A DNA stretch of 64,000 nt from a virus. Made by a program: the position numbers and the translations under genes. The first letter of the stretch is position 1, and each line of letters begins with the position of its first letter. This document shows, piece after piece, positions 1,937 through 58,003 of this stretch. Location of the stretch: positions 123,012-187,011 of the IMG/VR virus record IMGVR_UViG_3300036766_002288, one strand, 5' to 3'. The notes under the pieces were generated by a model. The model saw nothing but the letters and a program-made list of their open reading frames with translations, had not been told where the DNA came from and made no database searches.

Positions 1937-2120
1937 TTATTTAATCATTACAATGAAGGTCGTTCCTTACGATAACGTTTCCCCTGATAGTATTGAAAAG
2001 GAAATTGGAAACCAAACCACAAATTTACCCTGCAACAATCTTTTGTCTTGGGGTGGGTTGGGACCATTAGGAAAAATTTATGACGTGAAAGTTAGCCGTT
2101 CTCCTAAAGAATCATTATGA
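1929..2120 (+). CDS. Small hypothetical protein, 63 aa
   Basis: Overlaps both neighbours by a few bases. It has a beta-strand-like start (SDYLIITMKVVPYDNV) and a glycine-rich LLSWGGLGPLG segment. No recognised family. Confidence 0.55.
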   Translation: MSDYLIITMKVVPYDNVSPDSIEKEIGNQTTNLPCNNLLSWGGLGPLGKIYDVKVSRSPKESL

Positions 2121-2947: not shown

Positions 2948-2948
2948 T

Positions 2949-4472
2949 ATGAATTTTCTTGTATTGTTTACGTTGCTGTCTTTTATACCGCCTGATGATC
3001 CAATTATCGAACCTGCGCCTCCGAATCTTATTGCAGTACCGCCTGTAAAGGTGGTGCCGCGAGCGATGTTTAGTTTGGAAGATTTCCATATTTATGATGA
3101 AAAGCACAATCTACATGGATTGCCATTGACTCAAAAGATTTATGTAAGTGCCCCAAGTGACGAAGAAAAGAGACTTTTTATCAAGTTTGGTGAGAAACTT
3201 CCAGGCTTTACGGAGTTTTCGGTTATTGCCAACGGCATGAATAAGGACTTTAAGGGTTTGGTGCTTTTGTTCGACGAGAGGGGCAATGCTCTTAAGGCTT
3301 TAAATACTTGTTTGAAAGAAGGATATAGAGCCTTTCCTGTAGTAATTTATGACGATGTTGAGATGATTGTTCCTAATCAAGTAGTGGTCAGTATTCGGCC
3401 TAGTACTAGAAAGAGTGATTATTTTAAAAGATTGAATAAGGTGGCCGAAGGCAAGTTTGAAATTACAGAAATAGACAACAAAACTTTTTCTATTACTGCT
3501 AAAGAGATTGTCAATCCATCAAATATTTTAGTGTTATCGAATTTGATTTCACAAGATACTTTCTGGGTTAGTTGGGCATTGCCTGCTTTCGTACCATTGA
3601 ATGGATATATTTGGGCTACAGCAACAATTGAAACACCGTCTTATACTAACCTTGGGCAGGAACGCATTCTGAAGGTGGATATTAGTGTATTCGATCCTAA
3701 AATTGTTGTTAAGCTCGATTTGTTGCCACAAATGGGGCCAAGTTTGTATCCGTTTCCAAATGCTGGTGAAAATTGGCTTGATGTTAAACCACCTCAAATC
3801 ACAGAGACTGTTACTGCGACCAAGCGAGTAATTAGTATTTCATATCCATTTAGATATTTGCAGTTTGGCAATTTTGTATTTCAGCCAATTGCGATATCCT
3901 ATGAGAAGAATGGCAAGTTGATGCAAATAGGAACAAATACATGTCGGTTTGTCACTAAGAGTGTGATATTTGGCACTAATATCGAAGACTTACAACCAGA
4001 GTCTTATTCTCCCAATTTAGCTATGTTGCCCGCTGTTAAGCCAGTACAGACTCAAAAAGAATATTTAGGCGTGTTGGCTGGCGATGCCAAGTTGATTGTA
4101 ACAGGCTCGTTTGGTGTGGTTGGTGGAGTGTTGGTATTATTTTGGGCAGCTAGTTTACTTCCTATGTTGACTAGTATATTTAATAATAATCCTGGTGAAC
4201 ATTTATGGGAGCAATTGGATGCATGTCTGGATTTAGACCTAGAGGAAGATTGGCATCATGCTTATACTGCGATATCTTCTAGTTTGAATGCTGTGTTGGT
4301 CCGAGACTTTGGCGTATCCCTTTATTCTTTGACTCCTGAACACTGTACAGCGAATTTTTCAGAGTTGCTCGCTGAGTTGAACAAGTTGTATATGTGCGAG
4401 GAACATGTAGAGCCAGACTTTAGTGTATTGGAACACTCATTGATAGAGTTCTGCCGAAAACGTGAAATATGA
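2949..4472 (+). CDS. BatD-like membrane protein
   Basis: 507 residues. A hydrophobic N terminus (MNFLVLFTLLSF) resembles a signal peptide. It is followed by a beta-rich periplasmic-type region, one membrane segment at about 375-397 (VVGGVLVLFWAASLLPML) and a cytoplasmic alpha-helical tail of about 110 residues. This layout and its place between DUF58 and VWA genes match BatD of aerotolerance operons, although sequence similarity is only general. It overlaps the next gene by 4 nt. Confidence 0.65.
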   Translation: MNFLVLFTLLSFIPPDDPIIEPAPPNLIAVPPVKVVPRAMFSLEDFHIYDEKHNLHGLPLTQKIYVSAPSDEEKRLFIKFGEKLPGFTEFSVIANGMNKDFKGLVLLFDERGNALKALNTCLKEGYRAFPVVIYDDVEMIVPNQVVVSIRPSTRKSDYFKRLNKVAEGKFEITEIDNKTFSITAKEIVNPSNILVLSNLISQDTFWVSWALPAFVPLNGYIWATATIETPSYTNLGQERILKVDISVFDPKIVVKLDLLPQMGPSLYPFPNAGENWLDVKPPQITETVTATKRVISISYPFRYLQFGNFVFQPIAISYEKNGKLMQIGTNTCRFVTKSVIFGTNIEDLQPESYSPNLAMLPAVKPVQTQKEYLGVLAGDAKLIVTGSFGVVGGVLVLFWAASLLPMLTSIFNNNPGEHLWEQLDACLDLDLEEDWHHAYTAISSSLNAVLVRDFGVSLYSLTPEHCTANFSELLAELNKLYMCEEHVEPDFSVLEHSLIEFCRKREI

Positions 4473-5530
4473 TTGATAATCCTTATTTCCTGCTGCTTTT
4501 CCTAGTATTTCTGGCGTATTTATACTTCTGGAAATCTAGGAAATTCTATTTCCGTCATCCTTGTATGGAAAATCTCTCAACTTATAATCCAAGATTATGG
4601 TTGAGATGGGAATTTTTCATGCTAATGGGTGCTGCGTTTCTGGTGATGGGAGCGTGTAATTTCGTCTGGAAGACCAAAGAGAGTTTTAGGGTTAGTTTAG
4701 TCCATAAGTATGTTTTGATTAATGATGGCAGTGGCTCAATGGTGGATTATAACAAGCCAAATGGCATCGGCAAAGAACTGACTTCTGTTTTATCAGGCAA
4801 TGCCAAGTTATTTGAGTTCTTAGGCAAGCGGCAAGATGGTAGTAAGGACTTGGTTGGTGCCGTCGTATTTTCTAGTGACTCGTATGTAGTTTCATTCTTA
4901 TCAGATGATCCAGAGTTTGTGCATAAGAAACTAAAAAGGGTGGATTATAGGCTTCCGCCTATGAATCAGGGGACATATGTAGGAATTGGTCTGTGGACTG
5001 GTCTAGAAATGGTTTTGTCTCACGACAAGTCGATCAGTCAAAGTGACCTTGACCACTTGCAATTGAAATTCTATGGTGCAGGACACAATATCAAAAAAGA
5101 TAGTGTTACTGAGGCTCTGGTTGCGAACAAGAATGTGTTTGCAGGAAGCTCGCTCATATTCTTCACAGATGGGATTTTCGATTATCCTGAAGGTAATCCC
5201 AGGATAATGTCCACTTACAAGATCATTAATTTTTGTAAGGATATGGGTATTAGGGTCTATTTCATATCTATATTCCAATTGGACCCACTTATCATAAGAT
5301 ACTGTAAGGATTCTGGGGGCAGAGGAGAACTTATTACGGATGGTTACAACAAGAAAAGATTAGAAGAGATTTACGAAGACATAGTAACTAGTCAGGCTAA
5401 GGAATATACAATAAAAGAAGAAAGTGTAGATAGGTCATTAGGTACTATTTTAGGTTTAATTGGTTTGGCTTTAGTATTATGTGGATTGGTTTTACACAAC
5501 ACAAAACAGTTGAATTTTACAGAGGTTTAA
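4469..5530 (+). CDS. Bat-type VWA-domain membrane protein
   Basis: 353 residues. Two N-terminal membrane segments (about 4-20 and 50-67) are followed by a VWA domain and a C-terminal membrane segment (about 330-348). The MIDAS is complete: NDGSGSM, the threonine of NQGTYVGIG, and the aspartate of FFTDGIFDYP. BatA and BatB have the same layout. ATGA overlap upstream; three nucleotides to the TPR gene. Confidence 0.88.
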   Translation: MIDNPYFLLLFLVFLAYLYFWKSRKFYFRHPCMENLSTYNPRLWLRWEFFMLMGAAFLVMGACNFVWKTKESFRVSLVHKYVLINDGSGSMVDYNKPNGIGKELTSVLSGNAKLFEFLGKRQDGSKDLVGAVVFSSDSYVVSFLSDDPEFVHKKLKRVDYRLPPMNQGTYVGIGLWTGLEMVLSHDKSISQSDLDHLQLKFYGAGHNIKKDSVTEALVANKNVFAGSSLIFFTDGIFDYPEGNPRIMSTYKIINFCKDMGIRVYFISIFQLDPLIIRYCKDSGGRGELITDGYNKKRLEEIYEDIVTSQAKEYTIKEESVDRSLGTILGLIGLALVLCGLVLHNTKQLNFTEV

Positions 5531-5532
5531 AC

Positions 5533-6333
5533 ATGAAGAAGTTATTGTTTGGTTTGGGATTTCTTGCACTAGCTTGTGCATCCTTTGTTTATTTAGGGCA
5601 CAAAGAAACTCAGTTTTCTAATGCTGATTTCAGAGTTGCAGAAGACGATTATTTTAACCAACTTAAGTTCAATAAGGTTAATGGGATGTTTAATAAGGCA
5701 AATTCAGAGAGTAGTCTTGCCATAGTTGAAGCGTTATATTTGGGGACATTGGATGAAGTTGCTGAAGCAAGAATGGGGCCTTATGTTACTTTGAAGAAGG
5801 CTTCATTGTTGTTTAATCAAGGGGAATACTATTTGCATAGGGCGGAAGAGATTGAGTTTTCTTTATCCTCGCCGCCTAAGCCAGCAGGTCCACCAGATGT
5901 TGACCCAGAGAATCCAAATGTAGAGCCAATAGCCGCCCCGAACGAACAGAGGAAATATCATCCTTTGACAATACAGATGTTGCAGAAGGCTACGGATTCT
6001 TATGAAGCTGCTAGAAAAGAAGTTGACAAATTGTCAGAAAATACTGATATTGAGTTCAATTTTGGAATGAATTATCTTAAGGGTGAGATTTACTATCGCT
6101 TTTTAGAATTCATGTCAGATAGTGATACTGCACAAGAGTTATTCAATCAGACATTGAACTATTACAAGATAGCTCTTAGGCACAAACCTGGGGATATCAA
6201 TACGGTGGTAAACATTGAAATCCTAATTAAGAACCAGAATGATTTTTTATCTAATGCTAGTAATCCACAAGTGAAGCGTAAGCAAATGTTGAATGTTCGT
6301 AAGGCTGGACTTGGTTCGTCAAAGGGGAACTAA
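5533..6333 (+). CDS. TPR-like Bat-operon protein (BatC/BatE type)
   Basis: 266 residues from ATG 5533, which starts a signal or anchor sequence (KKLLFGLGFLALACASFVYL). A Pro-rich linker (about 115-135) is followed by helical repeats. The final one, YYKIALRHKPGDINTVVNIE, resembles the last TPR of BatC/BatE proteins. An upstream in-frame start at 5479 would lie inside the VWA gene and was not used. Lies between the two VWA genes. Confidence 0.7.
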   Translation: MKKLLFGLGFLALACASFVYLGHKETQFSNADFRVAEDDYFNQLKFNKVNGMFNKANSESSLAIVEALYLGTLDEVAEARMGPYVTLKKASLLFNQGEYYLHRAEEIEFSLSSPPKPAGPPDVDPENPNVEPIAAPNEQRKYHPLTIQMLQKATDSYEAARKEVDKLSENTDIEFNFGMNYLKGEIYYRFLEFMSDSDTAQELFNQTLNYYKIALRHKPGDINTVVNIEILIKNQNDFLSNASNPQVKRKQMLNVRKAGLGSSKGN

Positions 6334-6334
6334 C

Positions 6335-7357
6335 ATGCTGTTTGATAATCCAGTCTATCTGTGGTTGCTACTTATTTCTGCACCAATAGCGATTCTTTTA
6401 TTGAACACTATTCGTTTGTTCATGAGATTTCATAACAAGATAGCGGAAGAGTTTTTCGCTTATAGTAAATTCCCTTCTTACCTTAGAAGAGGTATTAGTC
6501 ATGGCGGTTATATTGCTGCGTTGATATTTCTTATTGTAGGCTTGGCGGAACCATACATTATGGTGAACGTCAGGGATAAGGAATATAAGGATATGCGTCT
6601 TTTGTTTGTATTAGACGTTTCCAGGTCTATGGTCTATGCGGAAGATGTTTTACCAAATCGCATGGAAGCGATGAAAAATCATGTGAAGGATTTTTATCTG
6701 CATTTAGATGGCCTGTATGAGTGTGCTATTCTTCCTTTTGCTGGTGATGCTAATCCATACTTTTGTCCTTTGACCAAGAGTAGGACTTCATTTGTGGCGA
6801 TGGTGGAAGAATTGGATTGGCGTTCAGCACCAGTATTGGGCACAGATTTAACTCGGGCAATGCAGTCTGTGCAAGATGTGTATATCAAGCAGGATAAGAT
6901 TGATAAATCTGGATTTAACATTATCATATTGATATCTGATGGTGGCAAAGAAGAATCCGTGGCCACCAATAGAATTGAATTATTGAAAATTGCGCGGGAA
7001 TTGGCAAAGAAGAATTTCAAAATTTACACGGTTGGTGTTGGTGGTGAGAAACCTTGTCCGTTGGTGGTAAGGGATAGCAAAGGTGGTTTTAAATCTTACG
7101 TACTTGGCGACAACAACCAGCCTGCAACTTCGCAATTAGATGAAGAAATTTTGAGGCAACTTGCGTCGATTGGTCACGGCAAGTATTATAGCCTAAATGC
7201 TTCTACCGCTTTAGCTTCCGACTTGAAGGAAATTGTTAAGGAGAATCAAGCTCTTATTACAGAGCAGATTCGACCAGAAAAATTTCCTTTACAGGGATAC
7301 TTATTTTCTGTTACAGTCTGCCTTCTATTCGGCTGCATGTTACTGAACAAGGTATAA
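6335..7357 (+). CDS. Second Bat-type VWA-domain membrane protein
   Basis: 340 residues from ATG 6335. Two N-terminal membrane segments (about 8-28 and 55-73), then VWA with a canonical MIDAS: LDVSRSM, the threonine of LGTDLTRAM, and ISDGGKE. A C-terminal membrane segment closes it (about 318-336). This is the standard BatA/BatB architecture and closer to consensus than the first VWA gene. It is the last Bat gene; only 4 nt separate it from the replicative helicase gene, so both are probably on one transcript. Confidence 0.92.
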   Translation: MLFDNPVYLWLLLISAPIAILLLNTIRLFMRFHNKIAEEFFAYSKFPSYLRRGISHGGYIAALIFLIVGLAEPYIMVNVRDKEYKDMRLLFVLDVSRSMVYAEDVLPNRMEAMKNHVKDFYLHLDGLYECAILPFAGDANPYFCPLTKSRTSFVAMVEELDWRSAPVLGTDLTRAMQSVQDVYIKQDKIDKSGFNIIILISDGGKEESVATNRIELLKIARELAKKNFKIYTVGVGGEKPCPLVVRDSKGGFKSYVLGDNNQPATSQLDEEILRQLASIGHGKYYSLNASTALASDLKEIVKENQALITEQIRPEKFPLQGYLFSVTVCLLFGCMLLNKV

Positions 7358-42381: not shown

Positions 42382-42418
42382 ATAATTCTCAAAAATTATT
42401 TCGATTTTTGAGAATTAT
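42382..42418. promoter_or_regulatory. 15-bp perfect inverted repeat, possible operator
   Basis: Arms 42382-42396 and 42404-42418, 7-nt spacer. It lies between the family B gene and the MerR-like gene. Possible autoregulatory site of the MerR-like protein; a terminator function is less likely because there is no T-tract. Confidence 0.5.
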
Positions 42419-43410
42419 GCATATCTTGGTCCTCCAGGCATATATTTCACGTATAATTCAGAATAAGCTGGGTGTGCCATTATTTCATTTTCTAGATCAA
42501 TAATTTGGGTCTTGTAAGTTTCCATCTTCTTATTTGCAGTTTCTGCATTGGTATTGCTCATCTGTTCAAAGTGAATGATGTTGTCTTCCTTTAGCTTTGT
42601 GAATTTTGCACCTAATTGACAAAGTTTGTAGTAAAGCCATGCACCTATTTCTTGCCTGACAAAATTATACAATTCTACGGTTTGGATTTTCTCTGGCATT
42701 AAGTCACGATCTTCATAATATTTGAAAAATTCATTTTGGTCTGGTAACTCACTAATTTCAAACTGTAAAAAATTATCGTCTGATGGAATGTGGTAGCCAG
42801 TCCAACTTGCTCCCGCTTTCATAGTCCATCTTTTCTTAGCTACAAGGAAGGTCGTGTCTATTTGTGGCAGTCTTAGCAAATACATGCCACGGTGTATGGC
42901 ATAATCACAGTTACAGCCAAGTAGTTTAGGTGTATAGGCAATGGCTACATCTGGGTCATCATAGAAATTAGTTTTAAGTTCTGTAAGCCATTCTGGGTTT
43001 ATGAGGATTACATCGTCATGCATACACAAATAACTATCTGTATGCACCCAGCTTAGTGCCATTTCTAACGCTTCTGCATAGCCAACTCTGCTCCATGCAC
43101 GGATGACGGTAAGTGGCATTTGGCGACCAATTTCACCTGTATGAAACCAATCTAGGTCTCTTAATTCTTCAAGAAATTTTTGCTTAACGTCTTGCGGTTT
43201 AGGATCGCCAGTTCTTTCGTCTGGTCCATTAATATTGACGCAGATATGCTCTAACATTCCATGTGGTTTATTTCGGAGTAGTAGTGAAAATACTGCCCAA
43301 AGTAGACATTCTATGCCAGCATTCGAAGTGGGAATGATTGCAGTGATTTTATCTTTAAGATGTGTCAAATCGACGCATTCTTCTATGTTCATCGCCATTT
43401 GTGGGTGCAT
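42415..43410 (-). CDS. Glycosyltransferase-like protein, family B copy 2
   Basis: 331 residues. Core LCMHDDVILINPEW. Paralog of 39038-40024. One nt separates it from the family A array. Function inferred from the D-x-D motif and neighbours. Confidence 0.75.
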   Translation of the reverse strand: MHPQMAMNIEECVDLTHLKDKITAIIPTSNAGIECLLWAVFSLLLRNKPHGMLEHICVNINGPDERTGDPKPQDVKQKFLEELRDLDWFHTGEIGRQMPLTVIRAWSRVGYAEALEMALSWVHTDSYLCMHDDVILINPEWLTELKTNFYDDPDVAIAYTPKLLGCNCDYAIHRGMYLLRLPQIDTTFLVAKKRWTMKAGASWTGYHIPSDDNFLQFEISELPDQNEFFKYYEDRDLMPEKIQTVELYNFVRQEIGAWLYYKLCQLGAKFTKLKEDNIIHFEQMSNTNAETANKKMETYKTQIIDLENEIMAHPAYSELYVKYMPGGPRYA

Positions 43411-43411
43411 A

Positions 43412-44284
43412 TCATTCCTCTAATTTCGACAACTCATACTCTTTTTTAAATTTAGCATAACGTTCCTCCACCATCATACCACTTGGTTTGCTTCCATGCA
43501 ATATAATTTGGTCTAATTCCAGGCCAATTGTTGTACCATGATTGCAATGATAGAGTAACTTTTGTTTTTGTGGTCTTGGTATTTTTAAGTTACATTTGTG
43601 ATATAAAGTTGAGTAAGTGTTGCAATCTAGGGTTTGAAAGGCTAACCATTTCCAATTTCTTTCTTTATTAAATATCCATAAATTACAACCCGTTTCAAAT
43701 AAACCGTTTTTATTAGGGAAAAGGTCAACATATTCAGGGATTGCCCCAGGTATAAGATATTTGCCAGGGAAATTAGTCTTTAGGTTAACTTGATTTTCTT
43801 CCGATTTGTACCCTCTTATTTTTAATTTATTTTCTAAGAATTTTGGGGTGGGTAGATCATTTTTTCGTACAAGAAGACTGATTTGATTTGGAAAGAAAGT
43901 TGCTGAATGTTCTACTGAATGATGATGTGAACAGCCTATAATGTTTAGGTTATGTTCTTTCATTAAATCAAAATAGATTTCATCTGCTGCATTGTAGAAG
44001 AATAAATCTGGGTCAGATAAAAATATATAGTCGTTTTTTGCTCTATCAATACATTCATGCAAACCAATTGCGTGTTGAATTCCATGTATTTGGTAGTTAG
44101 GACAACCAAACTTAATGAATTTAATCGAACCCACTTGCCATTCTTTATAGAAAGATTTTTCTGCGTCTACTTTTGCCAATAGAACTTCGGAGATAAGTTT
44201 TGTTTTTCTTAGTATTGAGTCCAGAAAGATTTTTTCAAAATATTTTTCTAGGCAGTCTAAGGTCACTGTACACAAACTAATCAT
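43412..44284 (-). CDS. Glycosyltransferase-like protein, family A member 5
   Basis: 290 residues. D-x-D core LSDPDLFFY, then IIGCSHHHSVEHSATFFP, and a GNLI/LYHC-type end. Start overlaps the previous gene by 8 nt. Closest relatives are the four adjacent genes. Confidence 0.75.
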   Translation of the reverse strand: MISLCTVTLDCLEKYFEKIFLDSILRKTKLISEVLLAKVDAEKSFYKEWQVGSIKFIKFGCPNYQIHGIQHAIGLHECIDRAKNDYIFLSDPDLFFYNAADEIYFDLMKEHNLNIIGCSHHHSVEHSATFFPNQISLLVRKNDLPTPKFLENKLKIRGYKSEENQVNLKTNFPGKYLIPGAIPEYVDLFPNKNGLFETGCNLWIFNKERNWKWLAFQTLDCNTYSTLYHKCNLKIPRPQKQKLLYHCNHGTTIGLELDQIILHGSKPSGMMVEERYAKFKKEYELSKLEE

Positions 44285-45152
44285 TTTTCATTTCCTCAAA
44301 TTTCTGGAAGAAGGCTTCTTTTGCTGTGCTTTCTTGCTCTGCGTCGCCTCTTGAACCACTGATTAGATGGTATAGTAACTTGCGATTTTTGATTTTGTCT
44401 ATTCTAATATTACCCCTATTATAGGCAGTATTGTAAAGGTGGCAATCCGTTGTCTGAAATGCTAGCCATCTCCAATTTTTTTCGAGACTCCATAACCATA
44501 GGTTGCAGCCCACGTCAAACAGTCCATAGTCCTTAGATAAATTTTTGTTTGGAAACTTATCATATAAGCCTTCTATTGGGCCTTGTAGCAACCAGTAGCC
44601 ATCCATAGGTTCTGCGGTTTGGTTTTCCACTGTTTCTAAATTGTTTATATGGAGGGCATTTATTAATTTGATTTTACCTTTCAAGAAGGTGTTGGTCGGT
44701 AATGACCGTTTTTTAACCATGCTGTTCGTTATGCAGGGAAACCAAGTGAAGGCTTGTGTCATTGCTGCATGGTGAGAAATACCTATGTAGTCAATATCAT
44801 ATTCGTTGATTAAGTCTAAATATAAGGTTTCAACTGGATGATAGAAAAATACGTCAGGATCGCAGAACATGACGTATTCACTGTTTGCACGTTCAAGACA
44901 TGCGTGCATCCCTAGAGCATGACCATTTGCTAAGCAGTTCCATGTTTTATCTTTCCAAATGTCAAGTAAAGGGTGGCCAAACTGTTTGAATTGTATATTT
45001 CCCTTAGTCCAGACTCTATCGTAGTAGTTTTTTGCATCTATATGGGCAATGATGACTTCTGAGACGTTTTTACAGTGCATGGCTATGGATTCAAATAATG
45101 CTTCTATGAATACATCACACCCAGCGTAAAGAACAGTGCATATACTAACCAT
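44277..45152 (-). CDS. Glycosyltransferase-like protein, family A member 4
   Basis: 291 residues. D-x-D core FCDPDVFFY, then IGISHHAAMTQAFTWFP. Shares RGNIRIDKIKNRKLLYH with the others. 8-nt overlaps at both ends of the operon. Confidence 0.75.
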   Translation of the reverse strand: MVSICTVLYAGCDVFIEALFESIAMHCKNVSEVIIAHIDAKNYYDRVWTKGNIQFKQFGHPLLDIWKDKTWNCLANGHALGMHACLERANSEYVMFCDPDVFFYHPVETLYLDLINEYDIDYIGISHHAAMTQAFTWFPCITNSMVKKRSLPTNTFLKGKIKLINALHINNLETVENQTAEPMDGYWLLQGPIEGLYDKFPNKNLSKDYGLFDVGCNLWLWSLEKNWRWLAFQTTDCHLYNTAYNRGNIRIDKIKNRKLLYHLISGSRGDAEQESTAKEAFFQKFEEMKND

Positions 45153-45990
45153 CTTCGTATGCCTTTTTAAAAGTGTCTAATTCTTCTGTATTTCCCCTTG
45201 AGCCACTCCCTAGATGGTAGAGCAATCTTTCTTTTTTGAATCGTTCTTTCAGCCCAAAGTTGTTTTTGGAGAAACCTACTAAGTGATAAAATAACTTCAT
45301 TTTGTCCAGTCTATAATTTAACTTAATATTGCCCCGACAAAAATTAGTTGTATAATTATGACAATCTGGCGTTTGGAATGCTAGCCATTTACCATTCTTA
45401 AACTTATTCCATAGAGTTAGGTTACTTCCAGTGTCAAAATGACCTTTGGGATTGGGAAATAGATCAGCAAATTTTTCTATTTTGTTTGGGATTAAAAATT
45501 TGCCATCCAATGGTTGGTCGCCGTCTTTTAGATAACCTTTCAGGAAGTCATCCCCAGGTAGTTCTGATTTTTTAATAAGGCAGTTTCCAATCCAGGGGAA
45601 AAATGAGTATGCCATGATTGTGGCACTGTGATGAGAAGCTCCTACTATGCTTAAATCATGTTTATTCATTAAATTAAGATATAGTTCTTCTACAGGATTG
45701 TAGTAGATTATGTCTGGGTCTGAAAGTAATATATAGTCGTTTTTAGCCTTAGCTATACAGGCATGTAGGCCCAGAGCATGTTCAACGCCTTGTTGAGTTC
45801 GTTTGAGTGGATGACCAAATCTGACTATTTTTACATTACCTTTAGTATCTTCGTTTTTATAGTTGTCTATAGCATCGACTTTTGCGATTAATACTTCTGA
45901 AATTAGTTTTGTGTGTCTGACTATAGACTTTAGGAACAATTCCATGAATGGTTCCATTCCATTGAGTTCAACTGTACATAAGGAAATCAT
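45145..45990 (-). CDS. Glycosyltransferase-like protein, family A member 3
   Basis: 281 residues. D-x-D core LSDPDIIYY, then IVGASHHSATIMAYSFFP. RGNIKLNYRLDKMKLFYH. Contains an internal near-repeat of KxxLLYHLGSGSRG at the C terminus. Overlaps neighbours by 4 and 8 nt. Confidence 0.75.
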   Translation of the reverse strand: MISLCTVELNGMEPFMELFLKSIVRHTKLISEVLIAKVDAIDNYKNEDTKGNVKIVRFGHPLKRTQQGVEHALGLHACIAKAKNDYILLSDPDIIYYNPVEELYLNLMNKHDLSIVGASHHSATIMAYSFFPWIGNCLIKKSELPGDDFLKGYLKDGDQPLDGKFLIPNKIEKFADLFPNPKGHFDTGSNLTLWNKFKNGKWLAFQTPDCHNYTTNFCRGNIKLNYRLDKMKLFYHLVGFSKNNFGLKERFKKERLLYHLGSGSRGNTEELDTFKKAYEDG

Positions 45991-46817
45991 TCTGCCTCCT
46001 TGGACTGGTCATAAGCATTTATAAAAGTATCCCAATCCCTGCCATTTGAGCCGCCGACTACATGATAGATGAGTTTTTGTTTAGGTAACTTGTCTATTTT
46101 TATATTGCCCCTATTACAGGTAGTTGAATAGGTGTGGCAGTCTGTCGTTTGAAATGACAGATATTTCCAATTTTTTTCTTGTGCCCATAGCCAGAGATTA
46201 CAGGAAGTGTCGAAATAACATGGTGCATATCTTGGATTTTTATTTGGAAATTTGTCATGATGTTCTGGCAAAGGGCTTTCAATCAAATACTTACCATCGG
46301 CCAGTTTATAATCATCATCAGGTCTTAAATCCTTGACGTGTAGAACCCCGAGTCGATATTTTAGTTGTCCTTTCATCCAATTTGGGTCGGGTAGGTCTGA
46401 TTTTTTCACCATTGAACAGACGACATATGGGAAGAAGGTATAAGCTTGGATTACTGATGCATGGTGAGAACAACCTATGTAGTTTATCCCGTATTTGTGC
46501 ATTAAATCCAGATACAACTTTTCTACTGGAGAGTAAAAGAAAATGTCTGGATCGCAAAACAGAAGGTAGTCGTTAGTGGCCCTATCTATGCAGGCGTGCA
46601 GACCCAACGGATGACCATACCACATATGCTGTGCCATGTGCCCAAACATGTGGAATTTTATTCCTCTTTCTGTCCAGGTTTTATCTAAGCTAGAGTCAGA
46701 ATCAACTTTGGCTATTAGCACTTCAGACACTAGTTCTGTTTTACGAAGGACAGAATCTAGCATTATTTTGATATGTTCTTGCAGTGAATCTATTAGAACA
46801 ACGCAAATTGTAATCAT
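45987..46817 (-). CDS. Glycosyltransferase-like protein, family A member 2
   Basis: 276 residues. D-x-D core FCDPDIFFY, then YIGCSHHASVIQAYTFFP and RGNIKIDKLPKQKLIYH. ATGA-type overlaps with both neighbours. Confidence 0.75.
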   Translation of the reverse strand: MITICVVLIDSLQEHIKIMLDSVLRKTELVSEVLIAKVDSDSSLDKTWTERGIKFHMFGHMAQHMWYGHPLGLHACIDRATNDYLLFCDPDIFFYSPVEKLYLDLMHKYGINYIGCSHHASVIQAYTFFPYVVCSMVKKSDLPDPNWMKGQLKYRLGVLHVKDLRPDDDYKLADGKYLIESPLPEHHDKFPNKNPRYAPCYFDTSCNLWLWAQEKNWKYLSFQTTDCHTYSTTCNRGNIKIDKLPKQKLIYHVVGGSNGRDWDTFINAYDQSKEAE

Positions 46818-47632
46818 GAATTTTCATATTCCTTTTTAAATTCTTCGAATTCATCGTCTCTCATGTTTGAGCCACCAACGTTATGGTATGCAAGTTTTTG
46901 AAAGGGTAATTTCCCAGGTTTTATATTGCCCCTAATATATTTTGTTGTGTAGATGTGGCAATCGTCCGTTTGGAATGATAGCCATTTCCAGTTGTTTAAT
47001 TTAGCCCAAGCCCAGACTTTACATCCAGTATCGAATACTCCGTCTTTATTTGGATATAATTCAGTACACACCCTAATTAAGCCTGGAGCAAGGAATTTAC
47101 CATCGTAACTAGTATATGAAGTTTCATCTTCATGCATTTCTTTAATCCTGAACATGCCATAGAATTTGAATTGGCCCTTTAACCAATCTTCACCTGGCAA
47201 ATCTTTTTTGTTCATTAAAGTGGCATATACACATGGGAAGAAGGTCATTGCATGGTTTACTGCTGAATTATGCGATAACCCAATGTAATTTAGTTCATAT
47301 TTATTTATCAAATTTATGTAAAGTTCGTCTATGGCTGAATACCAGAAGGTATCTACATCACCTATCATCACGTATTCATTTTGGCTTCTATCAATGCAAT
47401 GATGCAGATTTATGGCATGTTCTAGAGATTGTTGGTGCCTTACACCAGTAAATGTGCCGAATTTAGTGAATTTTATCCCGTTTTTTGTCCAAGTTTCATT
47501 AAGACTCGGTGGGCTATCTGTCTTGGCAATAAGCACCTCGGAGATCAGTTTACTCCTGTTCACTAGAGATTCCAGGAGGTAGGGCAGGTATCTTTCTGTC
47601 TGGTCTAGGGTTACAGTGCAATAAGAAATCAT
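46814..47632 (-). CDS. Glycosyltransferase-like protein, family A member 1
   Basis: 272 residues. First gene of the tandem array. D-x-D core IGDVDTFWY, then YIGLSHNSAVNHAMTFFP and RGNIKPGKLPFQKLAYH. Divergent from the gene at 47667 with only 34 nt between starts. Confidence 0.75.
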   Translation of the reverse strand: MISYCTVTLDQTERYLPYLLESLVNRSKLISEVLIAKTDSPPSLNETWTKNGIKFTKFGTFTGVRHQQSLEHAINLHHCIDRSQNEYVMIGDVDTFWYSAIDELYINLINKYELNYIGLSHNSAVNHAMTFFPCVYATLMNKKDLPGEDWLKGQFKFYGMFRIKEMHEDETSYTSYDGKFLAPGLIRVCTELYPNKDGVFDTGCKVWAWAKLNNWKWLSFQTDDCHIYTTKYIRGNIKPGKLPFQKLAYHNVGGSNMRDDEFEEFKKEYENS

Positions 47633-48875: not shown

Positions 48876-50957
48876 ATGGAGAAATCCCTTAATTTAGACC
48901 GCATTGCTGCTAAGTTTAACGTTGAAGAATTCAACACCCTTAATGAGGAAATGAGTTTTTCTGAGTATTTGGACAAAGTATATGCCAACCCATTGCTGAT
49001 TAGAACTGCGTATCAAAGACTTTATGATATGGTTGTCAGTGAAGGCATGGAAGAAATATATGAGAACAAAGAGAAGTTGTTTAGATATAAGTTCTTCGAT
49101 AACCCAGAAATCCCTATTTTTGGCTTGCACAAGCCTTTGAACGAGCTAGTTAAGTTCTTCAGGGGTGCTGCTGGTGGCTATGGTACCGAAAAGAGAATTC
49201 TTCTTCTTCATGGTCCAGTAGGTTCTTCCAAATCGACCATTCTTAGATTAATCAAACATGGCCTTGAGAAATATACGGCAAAGCCTGAAGGGGCATGGTA
49301 TTCCTTTAAGTGGATTAATCTGCCAACAGGTAAAGATGGCATTTATACCCATTGCGAAAATGATTGCCCAATGCACGAAGAACCTATCAAACTTATCCCT
49401 AAGCAATTGAGAAAGAAAGTCATTGCTGAATTGAATGAGATTCATCAGGAAAACTTGGCTGATAAGGACAAAAATGCTGCTTATACCCTAACCTGCATCG
49501 GTGAACTTGATCCACGTTGCCGTAAGTTTATGAAGGAATTGATGATAAAGGAGAAGGGGAATTGGAAAGTAGTCCTTGATAAGTATATCAGAGTTGTGAG
49601 AAAGGTTCACTCTGAAAGTGACCGTTGTGGCATTGCTACCTTCCAGCCAAAGGACGAAAAGAACCAGGATGCTACAGAACTAACTGGTGATATTGATTTT
49701 GGTAAGATCGGTCAATTTGGTGCAGATTCTGATTCCAGAGCATTCAGTTTTGATGGTGAATTGTGTGTGGGTAATCGTGGTGTCGTTGAATTCATCGAAA
49801 TGCTCAAACTTGCACAAGAATTCCTATATGACCTATTAGGCGCAAGCCAAGAACGTCAAATCAAACCCAAGAAGTTCTCGCAGATTTCAATTGATGAAGC
49901 AATCATAGGTCATACTAACAATCCAGAATATGAGAGACTTAAGAGCAATCAATATATGGAAGCTCTTAAGGATAGAACTGTAAAGATTGATATTCCTTAC
50001 TTGCTGAGTTGGGCAGATGAGACAAGAGTATTAGAACAGGATTATGGAACTGGCAAAGTAAAACAGCATGTCGCACCTCATACGTTAGAAATCGCAAGTT
50101 TGTGGTGTATTTTGACACGTTTGGAAGATGACAAGGATGGCAAACTTACTCTTGTACAAAAGGCAAAGCTTTATAATGGAGAAATACTTCCTGGCTATAC
50201 AGAAGATACCATTAAAGAACTACATGACAAACACCCAAATGAAGGGCTAAAGTTTGGTGTCAGTGCCCGTTATTCACAGGACAAGATCAGTAATTGCTTG
50301 AGCAACAATCACGATTACATCAGTCCTTTCATGGTCCTACATGAGATTAAGGAAGGTCTAGGCAACAACACATTAATCAACAAGAAGGAAGAGTTGGCCC
50401 ACTATTATAATTGTGTGGATTTAACGATCAAGGAGTTTAATAAAATCCTCATGGACGAGGTAAGAAAGGCATTAGTGGGCGATGAGAAGGTAATTGAAAG
50501 ACTGTGTGCGAATTATATTGAGAATATCTTGGCGTATATCAGAAAGTCCAAGGTTAAGAATAAGTTTACGGGTAGGGATGAACCGCCAAATGAACGTTTG
50601 ATGCGTTCTATCGAAGAAAAGATTGGTATCCCAGATCAAGGTGTTGACGATTTTCGTCGCACAATTGCTGCTTTCATTGGTGATATGGCTAATAGCGACA
50701 AGAAATTCCGTTGGGACAGCAATCCTGAGTTAAAACAGGCTTTGCAAGACAAGTTGTTCGAAGATACACAAGATCATATTAAGCTATCAACGCTTAATGT
50801 ATCAGAGGCAACTGTAGTACAACCAGATATCCAAGAAAAAATCGACCAGATCAAGAAGAGACTTATCGACCAATATGGATATAACGAAAGGTCTGCTTCG
50901 GATGTTTTGGATTATGTTGGAAGTTTGTTCGCTCAGAATAAGACTGAGGAGAAGTAA
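48876..50957 (+). CDS. prkA: PrkA-type serine kinase with AAA domain
   Basis: 693 residues. PrkA family: Walker A LLHGPVGSSKST (about 106-117) in an AAA-like domain, followed by the C-terminal kinase-like half. Length close to PrkA/YeaG (about 640-680). It phosphorylates partners under stress in bacteria; YeaG acts with YeaH in E. coli. Here followed by a macro-domain gene, DUF444 and SpoVR. GGAG upstream; terminator downstream. Confidence 0.92.
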   Translation: MEKSLNLDRIAAKFNVEEFNTLNEEMSFSEYLDKVYANPLLIRTAYQRLYDMVVSEGMEEIYENKEKLFRYKFFDNPEIPIFGLHKPLNELVKFFRGAAGGYGTEKRILLLHGPVGSSKSTILRLIKHGLEKYTAKPEGAWYSFKWINLPTGKDGIYTHCENDCPMHEEPIKLIPKQLRKKVIAELNEIHQENLADKDKNAAYTLTCIGELDPRCRKFMKELMIKEKGNWKVVLDKYIRVVRKVHSESDRCGIATFQPKDEKNQDATELTGDIDFGKIGQFGADSDSRAFSFDGELCVGNRGVVEFIEMLKLAQEFLYDLLGASQERQIKPKKFSQISIDEAIIGHTNNPEYERLKSNQYMEALKDRTVKIDIPYLLSWADETRVLEQDYGTGKVKQHVAPHTLEIASLWCILTRLEDDKDGKLTLVQKAKLYNGEILPGYTEDTIKELHDKHPNEGLKFGVSARYSQDKISNCLSNNHDYISPFMVLHEIKEGLGNNTLINKKEELAHYYNCVDLTIKEFNKILMDEVRKALVGDEKVIERLCANYIENILAYIRKSKVKNKFTGRDEPPNERLMRSIEEKIGIPDQGVDDFRRTIAAFIGDMANSDKKFRWDSNPELKQALQDKLFEDTQDHIKLSTLNVSEATVVQPDIQEKIDQIKKRLIDQYGYNERSASDVLDYVGSLFAQNKTEEK

Positions 50958-50960
50958 TTT

Positions 50961-51001
50961 AACGGACCTTCTGCCTAATTACGCAGAAGGTCCGTTTTTC
51001 T
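50961..51001 (+). terminator. Terminator after prkA
   Basis: 14-bp stem (50961-50974 with 50983-50996), loop of 8, then TTTTCTT. Confidence 0.85.
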
Positions 51002-51013
51002 TAGGAGACTAAT

Positions 51014-51244
51014 ATGTTTAATCCTTGGTTATTTAGGCATCAGTTTCCAGTAGGTAGTCAAGTTGAAATATTAAGGGAAGGGACGCTTGATGTTTATCAA
51101 GAGAAAATGGTTGGTAAAATAGGCACTGTTACGAATGTTGACTTTTTTAACGAATGGGTAGGTGTGCATATTGATGGTGGTCCTAAATGGATTTGTAACG
51201 TAAGGAGTTCAGATGAAATTTTATTTAAGAGATCGCAACCCTAA
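51014..51244 (+). CDS. Small KOW/SH3-like protein, 76 aa
   Basis: FPVGSQVEILREG and MVGKIGTVTNVDFFNEW form a KOW/SH3-type barrel, then VRSSDEILFK. Overlaps the next gene by 32 nt. Unknown partner. Confidence 0.5.
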   Translation: MFNPWLFRHQFPVGSQVEILREGTLDVYQEKMVGKIGTVTNVDFFNEWVGVHIDGGPKWICNVRSSDEILFKRSQP

Positions 51245-51803
51245 AATCACGGAAGCATGGCAGATGTTCTTTAAAGACAATCCTGACTTTGATGTGTCTA
51301 CAGGGAATATATTCGAAGGGCCAAAAACTGATGCAATCATAAGTCCTGCAAATAGTTTTGGGTTCATGTGCGGTGGTATTGATGCAGTTTACACTGCTTT
51401 ATTCGGTGTCCAACTACAAAATAGACTGCAAGCTTTGATTAAAGAACAGTTTTTTGGTGAGATACCAGTAGGTCAAGCCGCAATTATTGAGACCAATCAT
51501 ACAAGACATAAGTGGCTTATTTGTGCCCCAACTATGCGAGTACCAGATGTTGTCAAAGGTACCGTGAACGCTTTTCTAGCTTTTAGGGCATCATTACTGG
51601 TGGTCAAACATTTCAACGAATATTCAGACACTCCTATTGAATCAATTCTGTGTCCAGGTCTTGGCACTGCTGTAGGAGAATTAACTTCATGGAGTTGTGC
51701 CAGACAGATGTATGAAGCATATAAGGCAATTTGGCTAGGACAGCCTAAAGACCCAACTGATATTGCCGATATATTTTGCCAAAACAGGGAGTTAGCTCAG
51801 TGA
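51213..51803 (+). CDS. Macro-domain protein
   Basis: 196 residues. DAIISPANSFGFMCGGIDAVY is the ADP-ribose-binding macro motif (Asn, Gly-rich loop), later ILCPGLGTAVGELT. It would bind or hydrolyse ADP-ribose adducts. TGA at 51801 is followed in frame by 18 codons with coding-like composition. AAGGAG upstream. Confidence 0.78.
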   Translation: MKFYLRDRNPKITEAWQMFFKDNPDFDVSTGNIFEGPKTDAIISPANSFGFMCGGIDAVYTALFGVQLQNRLQALIKEQFFGEIPVGQAAIIETNHTRHKWLICAPTMRVPDVVKGTVNAFLAFRASLLVVKHFNEYSDTPIESILCPGLGTAVGELTSWSCARQMYEAYKAIWLGQPKDPTDIADIFCQNRELAQ

Positions 51804-51908
51804 GAAAAATATGTCAAGCATGATAAGAAGCCTGATGACACTGAATTCATTGAACATTAAGATTGATTTGGCATTAAGACATGTATATAATAATGGAGGA
51901 GGTGTCAT

Positions 51909-53090
51909 ATCCCTAAGACAATCGACGAAGACCACAAACATTTTATTGATGTTATTGATGGCAAGCTAAGAAAAGAGCTTAAAAAATATATTAAAACAAA
52001 CCGTTTCGTTCGGCTCAGGGGCAAAAACGGTCATGCAGTAGTGTCACTTCCAACGATTGATATTCCACATTTCACTTGTGGTGAAGGTAATACAGGCGTA
52101 GGTCGCGGTCCAGGTAAGCCTGGTGATGTTTTCAAGAAAGATAAAGAAAAAGGCAATGGAAATGAAGCTGGTGAAGATGAAGGCGAAGGAATGCTTGTTA
52201 ACGTTCCTATTGAATATTTTATAGACGAATTTGGTAATGAATTGAAATTACCACCGTTGCTGCCAAAGCCGACAGAGACTTTCGAAGATGTTAAAATCAA
52301 GTATAATGACATTTCTAAATCAGGTCCAGAATCATTGCGACATAATCGCAGAACAATTCTTCAAGCCTTGAGGAGACAAGCTTCTCAAGGTGAATTAGAG
52401 AAGTTCTTAGAGGTTCCTGGCAGTACTGACCCGATTAGGGTTATCCAACCTATTAATAGTGACCGTCGTTATCGTCAATATAAGCAAATCAGGATTCCTA
52501 GTACACAAGCGGTTGTCATGTTTGGGCGGGATGGTTCTGGGTCGATCAATGATGAAAAGTGTGAAATAATAAGTGACATGGCATATTGGATTGATAAGTG
52601 GGTAAGGCGGTTCTATGAAAAAGTAGAAGTTTGTTACTATTGGCATGATGTTGTGGCCAAGGAAGTGGATGAAGATACTTTCTATAAGTTGCGACATGGT
52701 GGTGGTACGATGTGTAGTTCTTGTACTAAAATGATGGCTAGTGAGTTCGAGAATAGATTTCCGCCTAATAAGTGGAATATATACTGTTTTTATTTCACTG
52801 ATGGTGATAATTGGAGTGGCGACACTCCTAAGTTTATAGAAGATTTAAAGGTTAAGTTCGCACCGAATATATGTAATCTATTCGGTGTTACACAGGTTTT
52901 GCCTGATGGCAGTGTGACTGTAAAAGATGCCGTTGATGAAGCTGACTTGCCTAATGTTCGTACCACCGCTATAGGAAGTGAAGGTGGGCATGATTCTTGG
53001 TCAAGTGAGGCAAGAATGACAGAAGACGAAAGAAACGAAGCTATTAAGCAAGCACTTAAGAAATTATTAAGTGTCGAAGAGGGTGCATAA
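51909..53090 (+). CDS. DUF444 (YeaH-like) VWA protein, apparent AUC start
   Basis: 393 residues if initiated at ATC 51909. GGAGGAGG lies 6 nt upstream, the frame is open from the stop at 51891, and codons before 52041 encode a conserved DUF444 N-terminal region (DEDHKHFIDVIDGKLRKE). The first ordinary start is GTG 52041, which would remove this region. VWA core: VVMFGRDGSGSINDEK (MIDAS), YWHDVVAKEVDEDTFYK and ITDGDNW-like FTDGDNWSGD. YeaH is the partner of PrkA/YeaG. SpoVR starts immediately after. Confidence 0.85.
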   Translation: MPKTIDEDHKHFIDVIDGKLRKELKKYIKTNRFVRLRGKNGHAVVSLPTIDIPHFTCGEGNTGVGRGPGKPGDVFKKDKEKGNGNEAGEDEGEGMLVNVPIEYFIDEFGNELKLPPLLPKPTETFEDVKIKYNDISKSGPESLRHNRRTILQALRRQASQGELEKFLEVPGSTDPIRVIQPINSDRRYRQYKQIRIPSTQAVVMFGRDGSGSINDEKCEIISDMAYWIDKWVRRFYEKVEVCYYWHDVVAKEVDEDTFYKLRHGGGTMCSSCTKMMASEFENRFPPNKWNIYCFYFTDGDNWSGDTPKFIEDLKVKFAPNICNLFGVTQVLPDGSVTVKDAVDEADLPNVRTTAIGSEGGHDSWSSEARMTEDERNEAIKQALKKLLSVEEGA

Positions 53091-54698
53091 ATGAGTTCTA
53101 AATTCATGCGGGGTTCACCACTGTTAGATTGTGGTCAAACAACTCCAGGCTGTCATCTTACAATCGAAGAAAAGAAAGTGTTTAACCAAGTTCTCAGGAT
53201 ATCCAAGGACTATGGTTTAGATTTTTATCCAACCATAATTCAAAAAGTAAAATACGATGAGATGAGTGAGATTGCTGCTTATGGTGGCTTCCCACATCGT
53301 TATCCACATTGGTATTGGGGAATGCAGTATGAAGAACTTCAGAGAGGATATGAGTATAACCAACACAGAATCTATGAGTTAGTTGTCAATACGAATCCTT
53401 GTGTCATGTATTTGTTGGCATCTAACACCATGACCGACAATATTTGTGTTGTGTTCCACGCGACTGGACATAATGACTTTTTTAAGAATAACATATTCTT
53501 CACGCCAACTGATGAAAATATGATGAATAAGTTGGCTAATAATGGGGATAGGATTAGAAAGTATTCGGCTAGGTGGGGCAGGGAAAAGGTTACTGAGTTT
53601 ATTGACCACGTTCTTAGAATTCAGAATTTAATTGACCCATCTAAAGCATGGTTAAACAGAGAGATCAAAGAACCTGTTATAAGGGATAGTAGAGAATATG
53701 AATTCCCAAGAAGATTAAAGACCAAGAGTGATAGGACACATATGGATTCTTGGCTTAATCCACAGAGATATATTGACGAAGAATACAAAAGAATTCAGGA
53801 TTTAGAATTGGCTAAAGAGCTAGATTTATTCCAAAACCCAGATAAGGATATCTTGGGATTTATCAAGGATTATGCAAGGTTTAAGCCTTGGCAGGCAGAT
53901 ATTATTGCAATGTTGTATGAGGAAGCAATGTATTTTGCCCCGCAGAGACAAACCAAGACGTTGAATGAAGGTTGGGCGTCCTTGATGGACTATGAGTTCC
54001 TTGCAAGACAAGGTTATGTTTCACTAGGACTGAAAAGCCATGATATGGGCATTTTTGAATATGCCGAACATAAAATGGGCGTCTTGGGCGGTAAGTATTC
54101 AATGAATCCATATAAAACTGGTTTCTATCTGTTGCTTGATATAGAAGAACGTTGGAACAAAGGCCGATTTGGTGAAGCTTGGGAAGATTGTAAAACCCTA
54201 AAAGAAAAAGAAAATTGGGACTTAAAACTCAACCTTGGTAAGGAAAAGGTCTTCGAAGTTAGAAGAAATTATAATGACGTAACTTTTATTAATGAATTCT
54301 TTACCCAAGAGTTTTGTGATAAGTATGAATATTTTGATTGGAGACATTATCCAGGGGGTGAGTGGAAGATCGAAAGTAGGGATGCAAAGGTAATCAAGAG
54401 AAAATTATTACAACGACATGTTAATGGCGGCTCACCAGATATTAGATTGGTTGATCCTAATCACCGTAATAAAGATTATTTGCTATTACAGCATTATTCG
54501 GATAGCCTGGACGACCGTGCTTTGTTTGAACCTTATGCTAGAGCAGTGATGACTTCTCTTTATTATTTCTGGGGTAAAGAAGTTATGCTGGTTTCAGCTA
54601 ATTCAAATAAAGAGGAAATAGTCTACGTTTGCATGGGTAAAGACCCAGAAAAAGATGTGGCTGTCATGAGCAGAGAAGAATACGAAAAGACATGGTAG
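53091..54698 (+). CDS. spoVR: SpoVR-family protein
   Basis: 535 residues. SpoVR/YcgB signature: HRYPHWYWGMQYEEL, LNEGWASLMDYEFLARQGY, KTGFYLLLDIEERW. Length near the family's 470-510. In many bacteria it is encoded with PrkA and YeaH. Starts directly after the DUF444 stop. Ends with TAG inside the next gene's start. Confidence 0.94.
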   Translation: MSSKFMRGSPLLDCGQTTPGCHLTIEEKKVFNQVLRISKDYGLDFYPTIIQKVKYDEMSEIAAYGGFPHRYPHWYWGMQYEELQRGYEYNQHRIYELVVNTNPCVMYLLASNTMTDNICVVFHATGHNDFFKNNIFFTPTDENMMNKLANNGDRIRKYSARWGREKVTEFIDHVLRIQNLIDPSKAWLNREIKEPVIRDSREYEFPRRLKTKSDRTHMDSWLNPQRYIDEEYKRIQDLELAKELDLFQNPDKDILGFIKDYARFKPWQADIIAMLYEEAMYFAPQRQTKTLNEGWASLMDYEFLARQGYVSLGLKSHDMGIFEYAEHKMGVLGGKYSMNPYKTGFYLLLDIEERWNKGRFGEAWEDCKTLKEKENWDLKLNLGKEKVFEVRRNYNDVTFINEFFTQEFCDKYEYFDWRHYPGGEWKIESRDAKVIKRKLLQRHVNGGSPDIRLVDPNHRNKDYLLLQHYSDSLDDRALFEPYARAVMTSLYYFWGKEVMLVSANSNKEEIVYVCMGKDPEKDVAVMSREEYEKTW

Positions 54699-55833: not shown

Positions 55834-56182
55834 GGGGGTGAAATGGTATCGACAGTTTTGTTGAAAAACAACTCTGCAAGCCGCAGTTGAACGAAGGGCT
55901 GCGATAAAAATCGTTCAATTTTCAGATGCAGAAAATACTTATGCATTGGCTGCTTAATTAAATAAGCAGGAACCTTCTACGGGATATCTGCGACTGTAGC
56001 GGGTTAATTAGCAGGTTGGGTTATTCAAATGTAGATTTTGAATAATCGAGATTTTTCTACTGGTTATCTTCGGGATTTGCTGGTTGTTCCTTGAGATAGC
56101 GAGATTAAACAATTAGAAAAGCTTGTAACGAAGATTGTTTATTAGACCAAGCTGGACCAGAGTTCGACTCTCTGCACCTCCA
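55834..56182 (+). ncRNA. ssrA: tmRNA (ssrA), about 349 nt
   Basis: The 5' end GGGGGTG pairs with CACCTCC (56175-56181), discriminator A; pair 3 is G-U, the alanine identity element. GAAATGGTATCGACAG near the 5' end and GAGTTCGACTCTC (T-arm) match tmRNA. Tag ORF: GCA GAA AAT ACT TAT GCA TTG GCT GCT TAA (55928-55957) gives AENTYALAA, ending in the ALAA degradation signal; the resume codon could be one or two codons earlier. It rescues stalled ribosomes; rare in phages. Confidence 0.95.
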
Positions 56183-57301: not shown

Positions 57302-57596
57302 AGAATTCTTTGGTATATTTTGGTCTTTTATATTTCTATTTTTATTGTCTGTAACGCTTGAAGGTTTAGTCTTCTCTTACTTATGGTTGTGGTTTGTCAC
57401 ACCATTTGGCGTTAAAGCAATATCAATATTACATGCTTTTGGCATATGTGTAATGATAGATTTTGTATCTTATCGCTATTACGACTATGTGAGAAACGAT
57501 GTGGGCTTAGCCACGTCAATTAATTATCTCTTAATAAGGCCATTGATGGCACTCACTACAGGATTTTTGTTAAAGCTTTTGATGGGCGTGTTATGA
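57288..57596 (+). CDS. Membrane protein, 102 aa
   Basis: At least three hydrophobic segments (FFGIFWSFIFLFLLSVTLEG, VKAISILHAFGICVMIDFV, RPLMALTTGFLLKLLMG). Small hydrophobic protein; holin-like roles are possible but unproven. Confidence 0.55.
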   Translation: MKNIKEFFGIFWSFIFLFLLSVTLEGLVFSYLWLWFVTPFGVKAISILHAFGICVMIDFVSYRYYDYVRNDVGLATSINYLLIRPLMALTTGFLLKLLMGVL

Positions 57597-58003
57597 AAGT
57601 TGGTATTGTAGGAAGTCGTTCTTATAATAATTCAGGTCGTATACGGGCGGTCATTGAGAAATATGTTGGGAAGTATGGTGCGGAAAATTTATCTATCGTT
57701 AGTGGTGGTTGTCCTGATGGGGCCGACGCTTTAGCTAAGAATTTGGCTCTTGAGATGGGGCTGGATTACCAGGAATTTCCACCAGCACATTCAAAACATA
57801 ATTCTTATTGTGTTCTTCCACCAGAAAACTATAATAAGCCTTACCAAGTTGGAAATTTCTTTAAAAGAAATGGTCAAATTGCTGAATATGTTGACCATTT
57901 AATTGCATTTGTTGTTCATGGTATCAAAGCAAACGGAACGATGGATACTGTTAGGAGAGCTAATAAATTTGACAAGCAAGTATTGGTGCTGGAGGATAAA
58001 TGA
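57593..58003 (+). CDS. SLOG/DUF2493-type nucleotide-binding protein
   Basis: 136 residues. GIVGSRSY at the start and SIVSGGCPDGADALAKNLA (about 37-55) match DUF2493 (YspA-like, SLOG superfamily), with IANGTMDT-like NGTMDTVRRA at the end. It may sense or hydrolyse a nucleotide ligand. ATGA-type overlaps with both neighbours. Confidence 0.8.
   Translation: MKVGIVGSRSYNNSGRIRAVIEKYVGKYGAENLSIVSGGCPDGADALAKNLALEMGLDYQEFPPAHSKHNSYCVLPPENYNKPYQVGNFFKRNGQIAEYVDHLIAFVVHGIKANGTMDTVRRANKFDKQVLVLEDK

Follow-up and report, generated by a model that had tools for sequence, protein, structure and literature searches.

The PrkA, DUF444 and SpoVR genes located between positions 48876 and 54698 of the viral DNA studied here may represent an old phage-owned copy of a bacterial operon, which many huge and jumbo tailed phages keep as a unit. 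Taken jointly with the mechanism proposed below, this reading has in our judgement slightly under an even chance of being right. The DNA, designated further as the window, is a stretch of 64,000 nucleotides that closes an IMG/VR virus contig of 187,011 bases and makes up its right-hand third. Identity of the triad genes is firm, and their mechanism we infer. In the window they follow each other in the order prkA, DUF444 and spoVR on one strand, with all expected domains in place (AAA_PrkA, PrkA C-terminal, DUF444 and SpoVR). A preliminary description of this DNA had placed here genes for PrkA, a macro-domain protein, DUF444 and SpoVR; all four were registered by Pfam at exactly these positions (Table 1), and the start of DUF444 needs correction. 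It had also counted two ATPase-plus-VWA systems in one window, and a set with MoxR-type AAA, DUF58 and VWA genes was indeed found at 2–7357. The genes themselves, their phage-borne nature and the second AAA+/VWA set thus stood, while membership of the macro and SH3-like genes in the module and the kinase role of PrkA were not supported.

Table 1. Features of the window considered in the analysis
Feature	Position	Strand	Size and evidence
PrkA/YeaG-family AAA+ ATPase	48876..50957	+	693 aa; Pfam AAA_PrkA 5.8e-77, PrkA C-terminal 2e-66
Orphan ORF ("SH3-like" in the preliminary description)	51014..51244	+	76 aa; absent from all other triad loci
Macro-domain protein	51213..51803	+	196 aa; Pfam Macro 5.4e-8 (above cut-off), PHROG 2613 1.7e-52
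Shine-Dalgarno stretch GGAGGAGGTG ahead of the DUF444 ATC start	51895..51904	+	
DUF444/YeaH VWA-domain protein	51909..53090	+	393 codons; Pfam DUF444 6.6e-52
SpoVR/YcgB protein	53091..54698	+	535 aa; Pfam SpoVR 1.6e-99
MoxR-type AAA (second AAA+/VWA set)	2-841		
DUF58 (second AAA+/VWA set)	2117-2947		
VWA (second AAA+/VWA set)	6293-7357		

Elsewhere in the record homologues of tail sheath, baseplate hub, UvsX, gp32-type SSB, UvsW-type helicase, SbcCD and ribonucleotide reductase are encoded. Based on these homologues, the record can be assigned to a tailed phage whose replication genes are of the T4 type. Since syntenic homologous regions are present in a 595-kb phage (LR756511, locus L018) and in a 340-kb contig (L017), it probably represents part of a huge phage genome. 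The record also encodes NAD synthetase and a SLOG-type protein. Upstream of prkA close relatives have an element resembling TTGTAT-17-TATAAT and the window has its weaker version, which is not significant against shuffles: the search for a sigma70-like element 5' of prkA scored no better than in shuffled sequences.

Comparison of gene order in huge phage contigs revealed a fixed arrangement of the triad. With profiles built for this analysis, PrkA, DUF444 and SpoVR were found in this order and on one strand in 80 of the 88 distinct viral loci; the order DUF444-SpoVR-PrkA was registered in two, both belonging to Thermus phages, and the remaining exceptions are mostly cut contigs. An independent search seeded with SpoVR gave 80 loci, all with DUF444 no more than 4 kb away (80/80) and 74 with a PrkA sequence. 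The same order was observed in 59 of 80 bacterial loci; in the other 21 the set is incomplete within the sequence examined. Huge-phage sequences form one group beside bacterial ones in each of the gene trees of PrkA, DUF444 and SpoVR, with low support for this group in the PrkA tree (49) and with a bacterial sample composed of the best bacterial matches only. The dN/dS values of 0.026–0.05 between close relatives indicate strong purifying selection; they refer to loci L009, L010 and L017, since dS reaches saturation when the window is compared with its relatives. In mahaphage LR756502 SpoVR is ~243 kb distant from PrkA-DUF444, so adjacency of the triad is not always needed.

According to the preliminary description, its reading would fall if the set were absent from other phages and a host insert or an assembly join were evident at this place; the opposite was found. 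Foreign origin of this kind could agree with the bacterial ancestry of the triad genes, but in numerous independent viral contigs, those of 340 and 595 kb included, the triad is flanked by phage genes on either side, and the gene trees contain phage-specific branches. An insert or a join is refuted by synteny in other viral contigs and retains a probability close to nil.

Conserved neighbours of the huge-phage triad are genes connected with replication, nucleotides and sugars (DNA polymerase III alpha, ThyX, an HldE-like protein and a zinc ribbon); structural genes are not among them. This composition is important for the assumption that the triad participates in virion assembly as a late complex acting as a chaperone and processing proteins of the head or tail. 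In phage Lalka8 the triad does lie between the portal/minor head protein and TerL, in phiYS40 TerL is three genes from it, and a virion-assembly-type role was proposed by Iyer et al. for the MoxR-vWA pair of a jumbo phage, which is fused to a metallopeptidase (PMC7824862). The non-structural surroundings in huge phages and the existence of the same triad as a chromosomal operon in bacteria argue, however, against such a function, which we consider unlikely.

The gap between prkA and DUF444 is a variable cargo slot, and the macro and SH3-like genes residing there are passengers. They had been taken for parts of the module, but other triad loci have neither of them, with the exception of one truncated macro gene. 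Among all triad loci searched an intact macro gene beside the triad was found only in the window, and the 80 loci of the SpoVR-seeded search contain none (0/80). The nearest relative, sister phage L018, has at the same site a remnant that lost residues 47–120 including the first binding loop, and in L009, L010 and L017 the place of the macro gene is taken by an unrelated ORF of ~80 aa. The ORF labelled SH3-like gave no Pfam, PHROG or phage match and has no counterpart in other triad loci. One can nevertheless imagine an ADP-ribose-linked module, in which the macro protein would sense or remove ADP-ribose and control the PrkA set. Its gene is co-directional with the triad and overlaps the SH3-like ORF, both ligand-binding loops are kept in the alignment with phage homologues (PANSFGFMCGG and CPGLGTAVG), and the NAD synthetase and SLOG-type protein of the record would fit this scheme. 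Yet all other triad loci either lack the gene or have it in truncated form, and its homologues in other phages are located elsewhere, often by tail-fibre genes, which leaves ADP-ribose control very improbable.

PrkA contains the Walker A motif GPVGSSKST (residues 113–121), where G113, K119, S120 and T121 are invariant in 36 sequences. In Pfam it matches AAA_PrkA only and not the MoxR-type AAA_3/AAA_5, the MoxR of the window being a separate gene, so the analogy with systems employing VWA adaptors rests on architecture. The C-terminal 313 residues were modelled as all-helical (AF2, mean pLDDT 83.9), and the first ~115 residues of this region resemble, with low Z, AAA+ lid domains of ClpB, clamp loader, Orc1 and FtsH. 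No zincin appeared among the matches listed for this model in the same search as for SpoVR, nor did any kinase, although absence from the list is not proof. Bacterial PrkA structures have been solved (9xip, 9xiq and 9xir) and were not among the fold-library results for the PrkA model.

These data bear on the earlier view of PrkA as a kinase, according to which the phage protein would phosphorylate DUF444, SpoVR or host proteins. Such a cascade is suggested by the family annotation and by the kinase activity of recombinant E. coli YeaG, reported in work cited by PMC4664914. The proposed catalytic lysine of YeaG, K426, is required in E. coli (PMC4664914), but it corresponds to Asp469 in PrkA of the window, and the rest of the PrkA proteins compared have either Asp or Asn at this place. 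In PrkA of B. anthracis kinase activity was undetectable and protease activity negligible (PMC13001217). Given also an all-helical C-terminal model that in part resembles AAA+ lid domains, the kinase cascade seems hardly probable.

DUF444 begins at position 51909 with the codon ATC, and GTG at 52041, called as the start earlier, lies inside the gene. The N-terminal 44 residues (PKTIDEDHKHF...) are encoded upstream of this GTG and are conserved across phages, while the search for ATG, GTG or TTG from the in-frame stop up to this N-terminus revealed none. It is the conserved N-terminus preceding 52041 and the lack of an available canonical start that assign initiation to ATC, which sits four bases past the Shine-Dalgarno stretch. 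The core GAGGTG recurs 5' of ATC or ATT starts in most other loci having them. Either codon occupies the aligned start position in 13 of 84 viral DUF444 genes with readable start, belonging to several lineages, and 11 of these 13 have no canonical in-frame start upstream. Within the window DUF444 is the only genuine gene with a start offset this large. It is well known that AUC and AUU starts are rare and that in E. coli infC they serve autoregulation; by this analogy it is possible that DUF444 is under translational control via its AUC start.

The metal-binding motif (MIDAS) of the DUF444 VWA domain, composed of DGSGS with Thr and Asp, is represented by D208, S210, S212, T267 and D298, all invariant in the alignment. 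Based on this invariance the VWA fold should bind Mg, and from known VWA-AAA+ pairs (PMC7159879) it could serve as an adaptor of an AAA+ protein. Both signatures of an AAA+/VWA pair are intact here, Walker A in PrkA and MIDAS in DUF444.

In SpoVR residues H123, H127 and E293 show no variation among 38 sequences from phages and bacteria. Both histidines lie on one helix and E293 on another in the AF2 model (mean pLDDT 83.8). Structural matches of this model are putative lipoprotein 3o0y (Z 10.6), LTA4H (7.9), IRAP (7.7 and 7.2), T. cruzi carboxypeptidase 1 (TcMCP1, 7.2), Pz peptidase A (7.2) and an M61 peptidase (5.9), with ACE2 and BlaR1, among others, ranked lower. Apart from 3o0y the top matches are zincins, and zincin peptidases prevail among the best ones (families M1, M32, M3, M61, M2 and M56). 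The Z values lie mostly between 5 and 8 and those below 8 can arise by chance, so the argument consists in consistency across zincin families. Foldseek alone gave no significant match for the model (E > 0.1), sequence profiles provided no link to zincins at E up to 10, and no solved relative of SpoVR was found by sequence. The C-terminal 87 residues are similar to a portion of DHH-family proteins (GdpP, Z 5.5 over 80 residues). We infer that SpoVR is a zincin-fold metal-binding protein predicted to use H123, H127 and E293. Its motif HAxGH, represented by HA[TLI]GH in viral SpoVR and by HACYGH in YcgB, does not contain the catalytic Glu of HEXXH, and for this reason the protein may bind metal without peptidase activity or bind none.

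The equivalents of H123, H127 and E293 in E. coli YcgB are H122, H127 and E283; thus H127 of the bacterial protein is the same residue as H127 of phage SpoVR. Substitution H127Y in ycgB rose to 64% (0.637) in a population of E. coli selected with iron(III), and yeaG E414K became fixed in one T7-resistant population; other mutations rose alongside both of them, and hitch-hiking is possible (PMC10044975).

Reading frames of spoVR are interrupted in 20 of 89 viral loci, many of which are near copies, by 26 in-frame inserts in total. They have the attributes of inteins, i.e. preserved frame, Cys1, C-terminal HN and a nucleophile at +1, and contain LAGLIDADG domains and, in part, intein-splicing domains; the mini-insert of mahaphage L021 has intein motifs and no Pfam match. 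Insertion took place between residues 100 and 101 (VIN^T), 296 and 297 (NEGxA^S) and, independently, at NEG^C in L021. These sites lie in or beside the motifs of SpoVR that are conserved best, flanking E293 and the strand with invariant E96. No inteins were found in PrkA of the loci that have them in SpoVR. Inteins are known to tend toward active sites of indispensable proteins.

One can propose that PrkA forms an ATP-driven ring, for which the DUF444 VWA protein would be a metal-dependent adaptor capturing a protein, while SpoVR would be the effector, serving the ring either as the object of its action or as the means. In the infected cell the triad would then act on a target in the host envelope or in its stress state and keep the cell productive. 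To this scheme, an AAA+ ring with a VWA adaptor serving the metal-dependent enzyme SpoVR and acting on the host, we give nearly, but not quite, equal chances of being true and false. With more reserve we suggest that SpoVR and YcgB may be zincin-fold metalloenzymes without the usual catalytic Glu, that the triad may be an AAA+/VWA/metalloenzyme machine needed by huge phages, and that repeated inteins may mark its active site; this bolder proposal is rather doubtful.

PrkA, YeaH and SpoVR occur widely among bacteria and have long been linked to stress, resistance to antimicrobial peptides and sporulation, with no agreed biochemical role, and in PHROGs each of the three is a family of unknown function. 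Since huge phages keep the triad as one unit under strong selection, it should be useful by itself in many hosts. Invariant H/H/E residues of SpoVR, inteins surrounding them and the substitution of the same His in E. coli under selection offer a residue-level hypothesis for this old question, and the resemblance of SpoVR to metal-dependent enzymes makes the function of the operon testable.

A phage-borne triad as such is already known: the deposited sequences of phiYS40 and TMA, which contain it, are several years old, and phiLo, MN1 and Lalka8 have it as well. These Thermus phages, like the window, have all three genes adjacent in a tailed phage, annotated as SpoVR, serine kinase and conserved bacterial protein. 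They differ in gene order (DUF444-SpoVR-PrkA), share 22–34% identity with the window and form a separate branch; in phiYS40 and Lalka8 the triads are near TerL, unlike that of the window. Ralstonia jumbo phage RsoM2USA, for which PrkA and SpoVR two ORFs apart were reported in 2021 as closest to gammaproteobacterial proteins, apparently has the triad, judging from that paper (PMC8504454). Enterobacter phage LAU1 has YeaG and YeaH, with YeaG-type genes at the extreme end of its record. In marine oxygen-minimum-zone viromes spoVR of viral contigs was regarded as an auxiliary gene and read as a sporulation gene, the passages on it leaving operon context undescribed (PMC8940887). The spread of the triad as a fixed operon in huge phages, the inteins of SpoVR, initiation at a non-AUG codon and the zincin-like fold appear to be undescribed in open-access literature, where no paper with both "intein" and "SpoVR" was found; no priority is claimed.

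Bacterial prkA-DUF444-spoVR operons of Planctomycetota, Chloroflexota, Myxococcota and others have the same families, order and motifs as the window, but their PrkA is at most ~54% identical and SpoVR ~42%, and in the trees, for which only the best bacterial matches were taken, the phage group contains no bacterial sequences. E. coli has the same families in yeaGH and ycgB, the latter being unlinked, unlike spoVR of the window; its yeaG and yeaH mutants share a common phenotype (PMC4664914), and sensitivity to antimicrobial peptides is a property of mutants in ycgB and yeaH (PMC2375023). The jumbo-phage pair of MoxR-vWA and metallopeptidase (PMC7824862) is comparable in composition, although PrkA of the window belongs to another AAA+ family and SpoVR is a separate protein without the HEXXH Glu. 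The triad can also be likened to MoxR-VWA ternary systems, where an AAA+ ring operates with a VWA adaptor (PMC7159879), the window adding a predicted zincin-type partner.

In many huge-phage loci the triad of PrkA, DUF444 and SpoVR genes is preceded by HldE-like and ThyX genes and followed, a few kb downstream, by a gene for a ClpP-like protease with homologues in about 32 loci. The tmRNA gene of the window was registered at the equivalent position in two related phage loci, the 340-kb contig L017 and LR756511 (L018), with differing tag peptides. Together with the macro gene located between prkA and DUF444, the NAD synthetase and the SLOG-family protein compose a possible NAD theme. The yeaG and yeaH genes of Enterobacter phage LAU1 may be host DNA at a prophage boundary.

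Coordinates of the features described here (window, unless a locus is indicated)
Feature	Position	Remark
Second AAA+/VWA set	2-7357	MoxR-type AAA (truncated at window edge), DUF58 and VWA genes
Glycosyltransferase-like gene array	42415-47632	minus strand; tandem, mutually similar
DUF444 start region	51895-51911	ATC start codon downstream of strong Shine-Dalgarno
SpoVR residues 449-535	54435-54695	
tmRNA gene	55834-56182	between SpoVR and AAA ATPase genes
SLOG-family (YspA-like) protein	57593-58003	
tRNA cluster	L005:6741-12862	10 phage tRNA genes, one stretch of the record
NAD synthetase	L007:15257-16957	another stretch of the record
ClpP-like protease gene	L011:12944-13651	example
LAU1 yeaG and yeaH	L184:1-3308	very start of record, ahead of tail genes
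SpoVR intein loci	L010, L015, L021, L123-L126, L129, L132-L134, L136-L138, L144, L150, L166, L172, L174, L176	

ATC or ATT occupies the aligned DUF444 start position in 13 of the 84 viral homologues, and such a start is possibly regulated. Expansion of the glycosyltransferase-like array differs among the related loci L009, L010 and L018. All 10 tRNA genes of the cluster correspond to Leu or Ser, and no others were found in the stretches that were scanned.

Inteins interrupt SpoVR in frame at three insertion sites, with at most two per gene; in the related contigs L139 and L180 this gene is intein-free. According to structural comparison of the predicted model, the C-terminal part of SpoVR resembles, at a Z of about 5.5, a portion of phosphoesterase structures from the DHH family.
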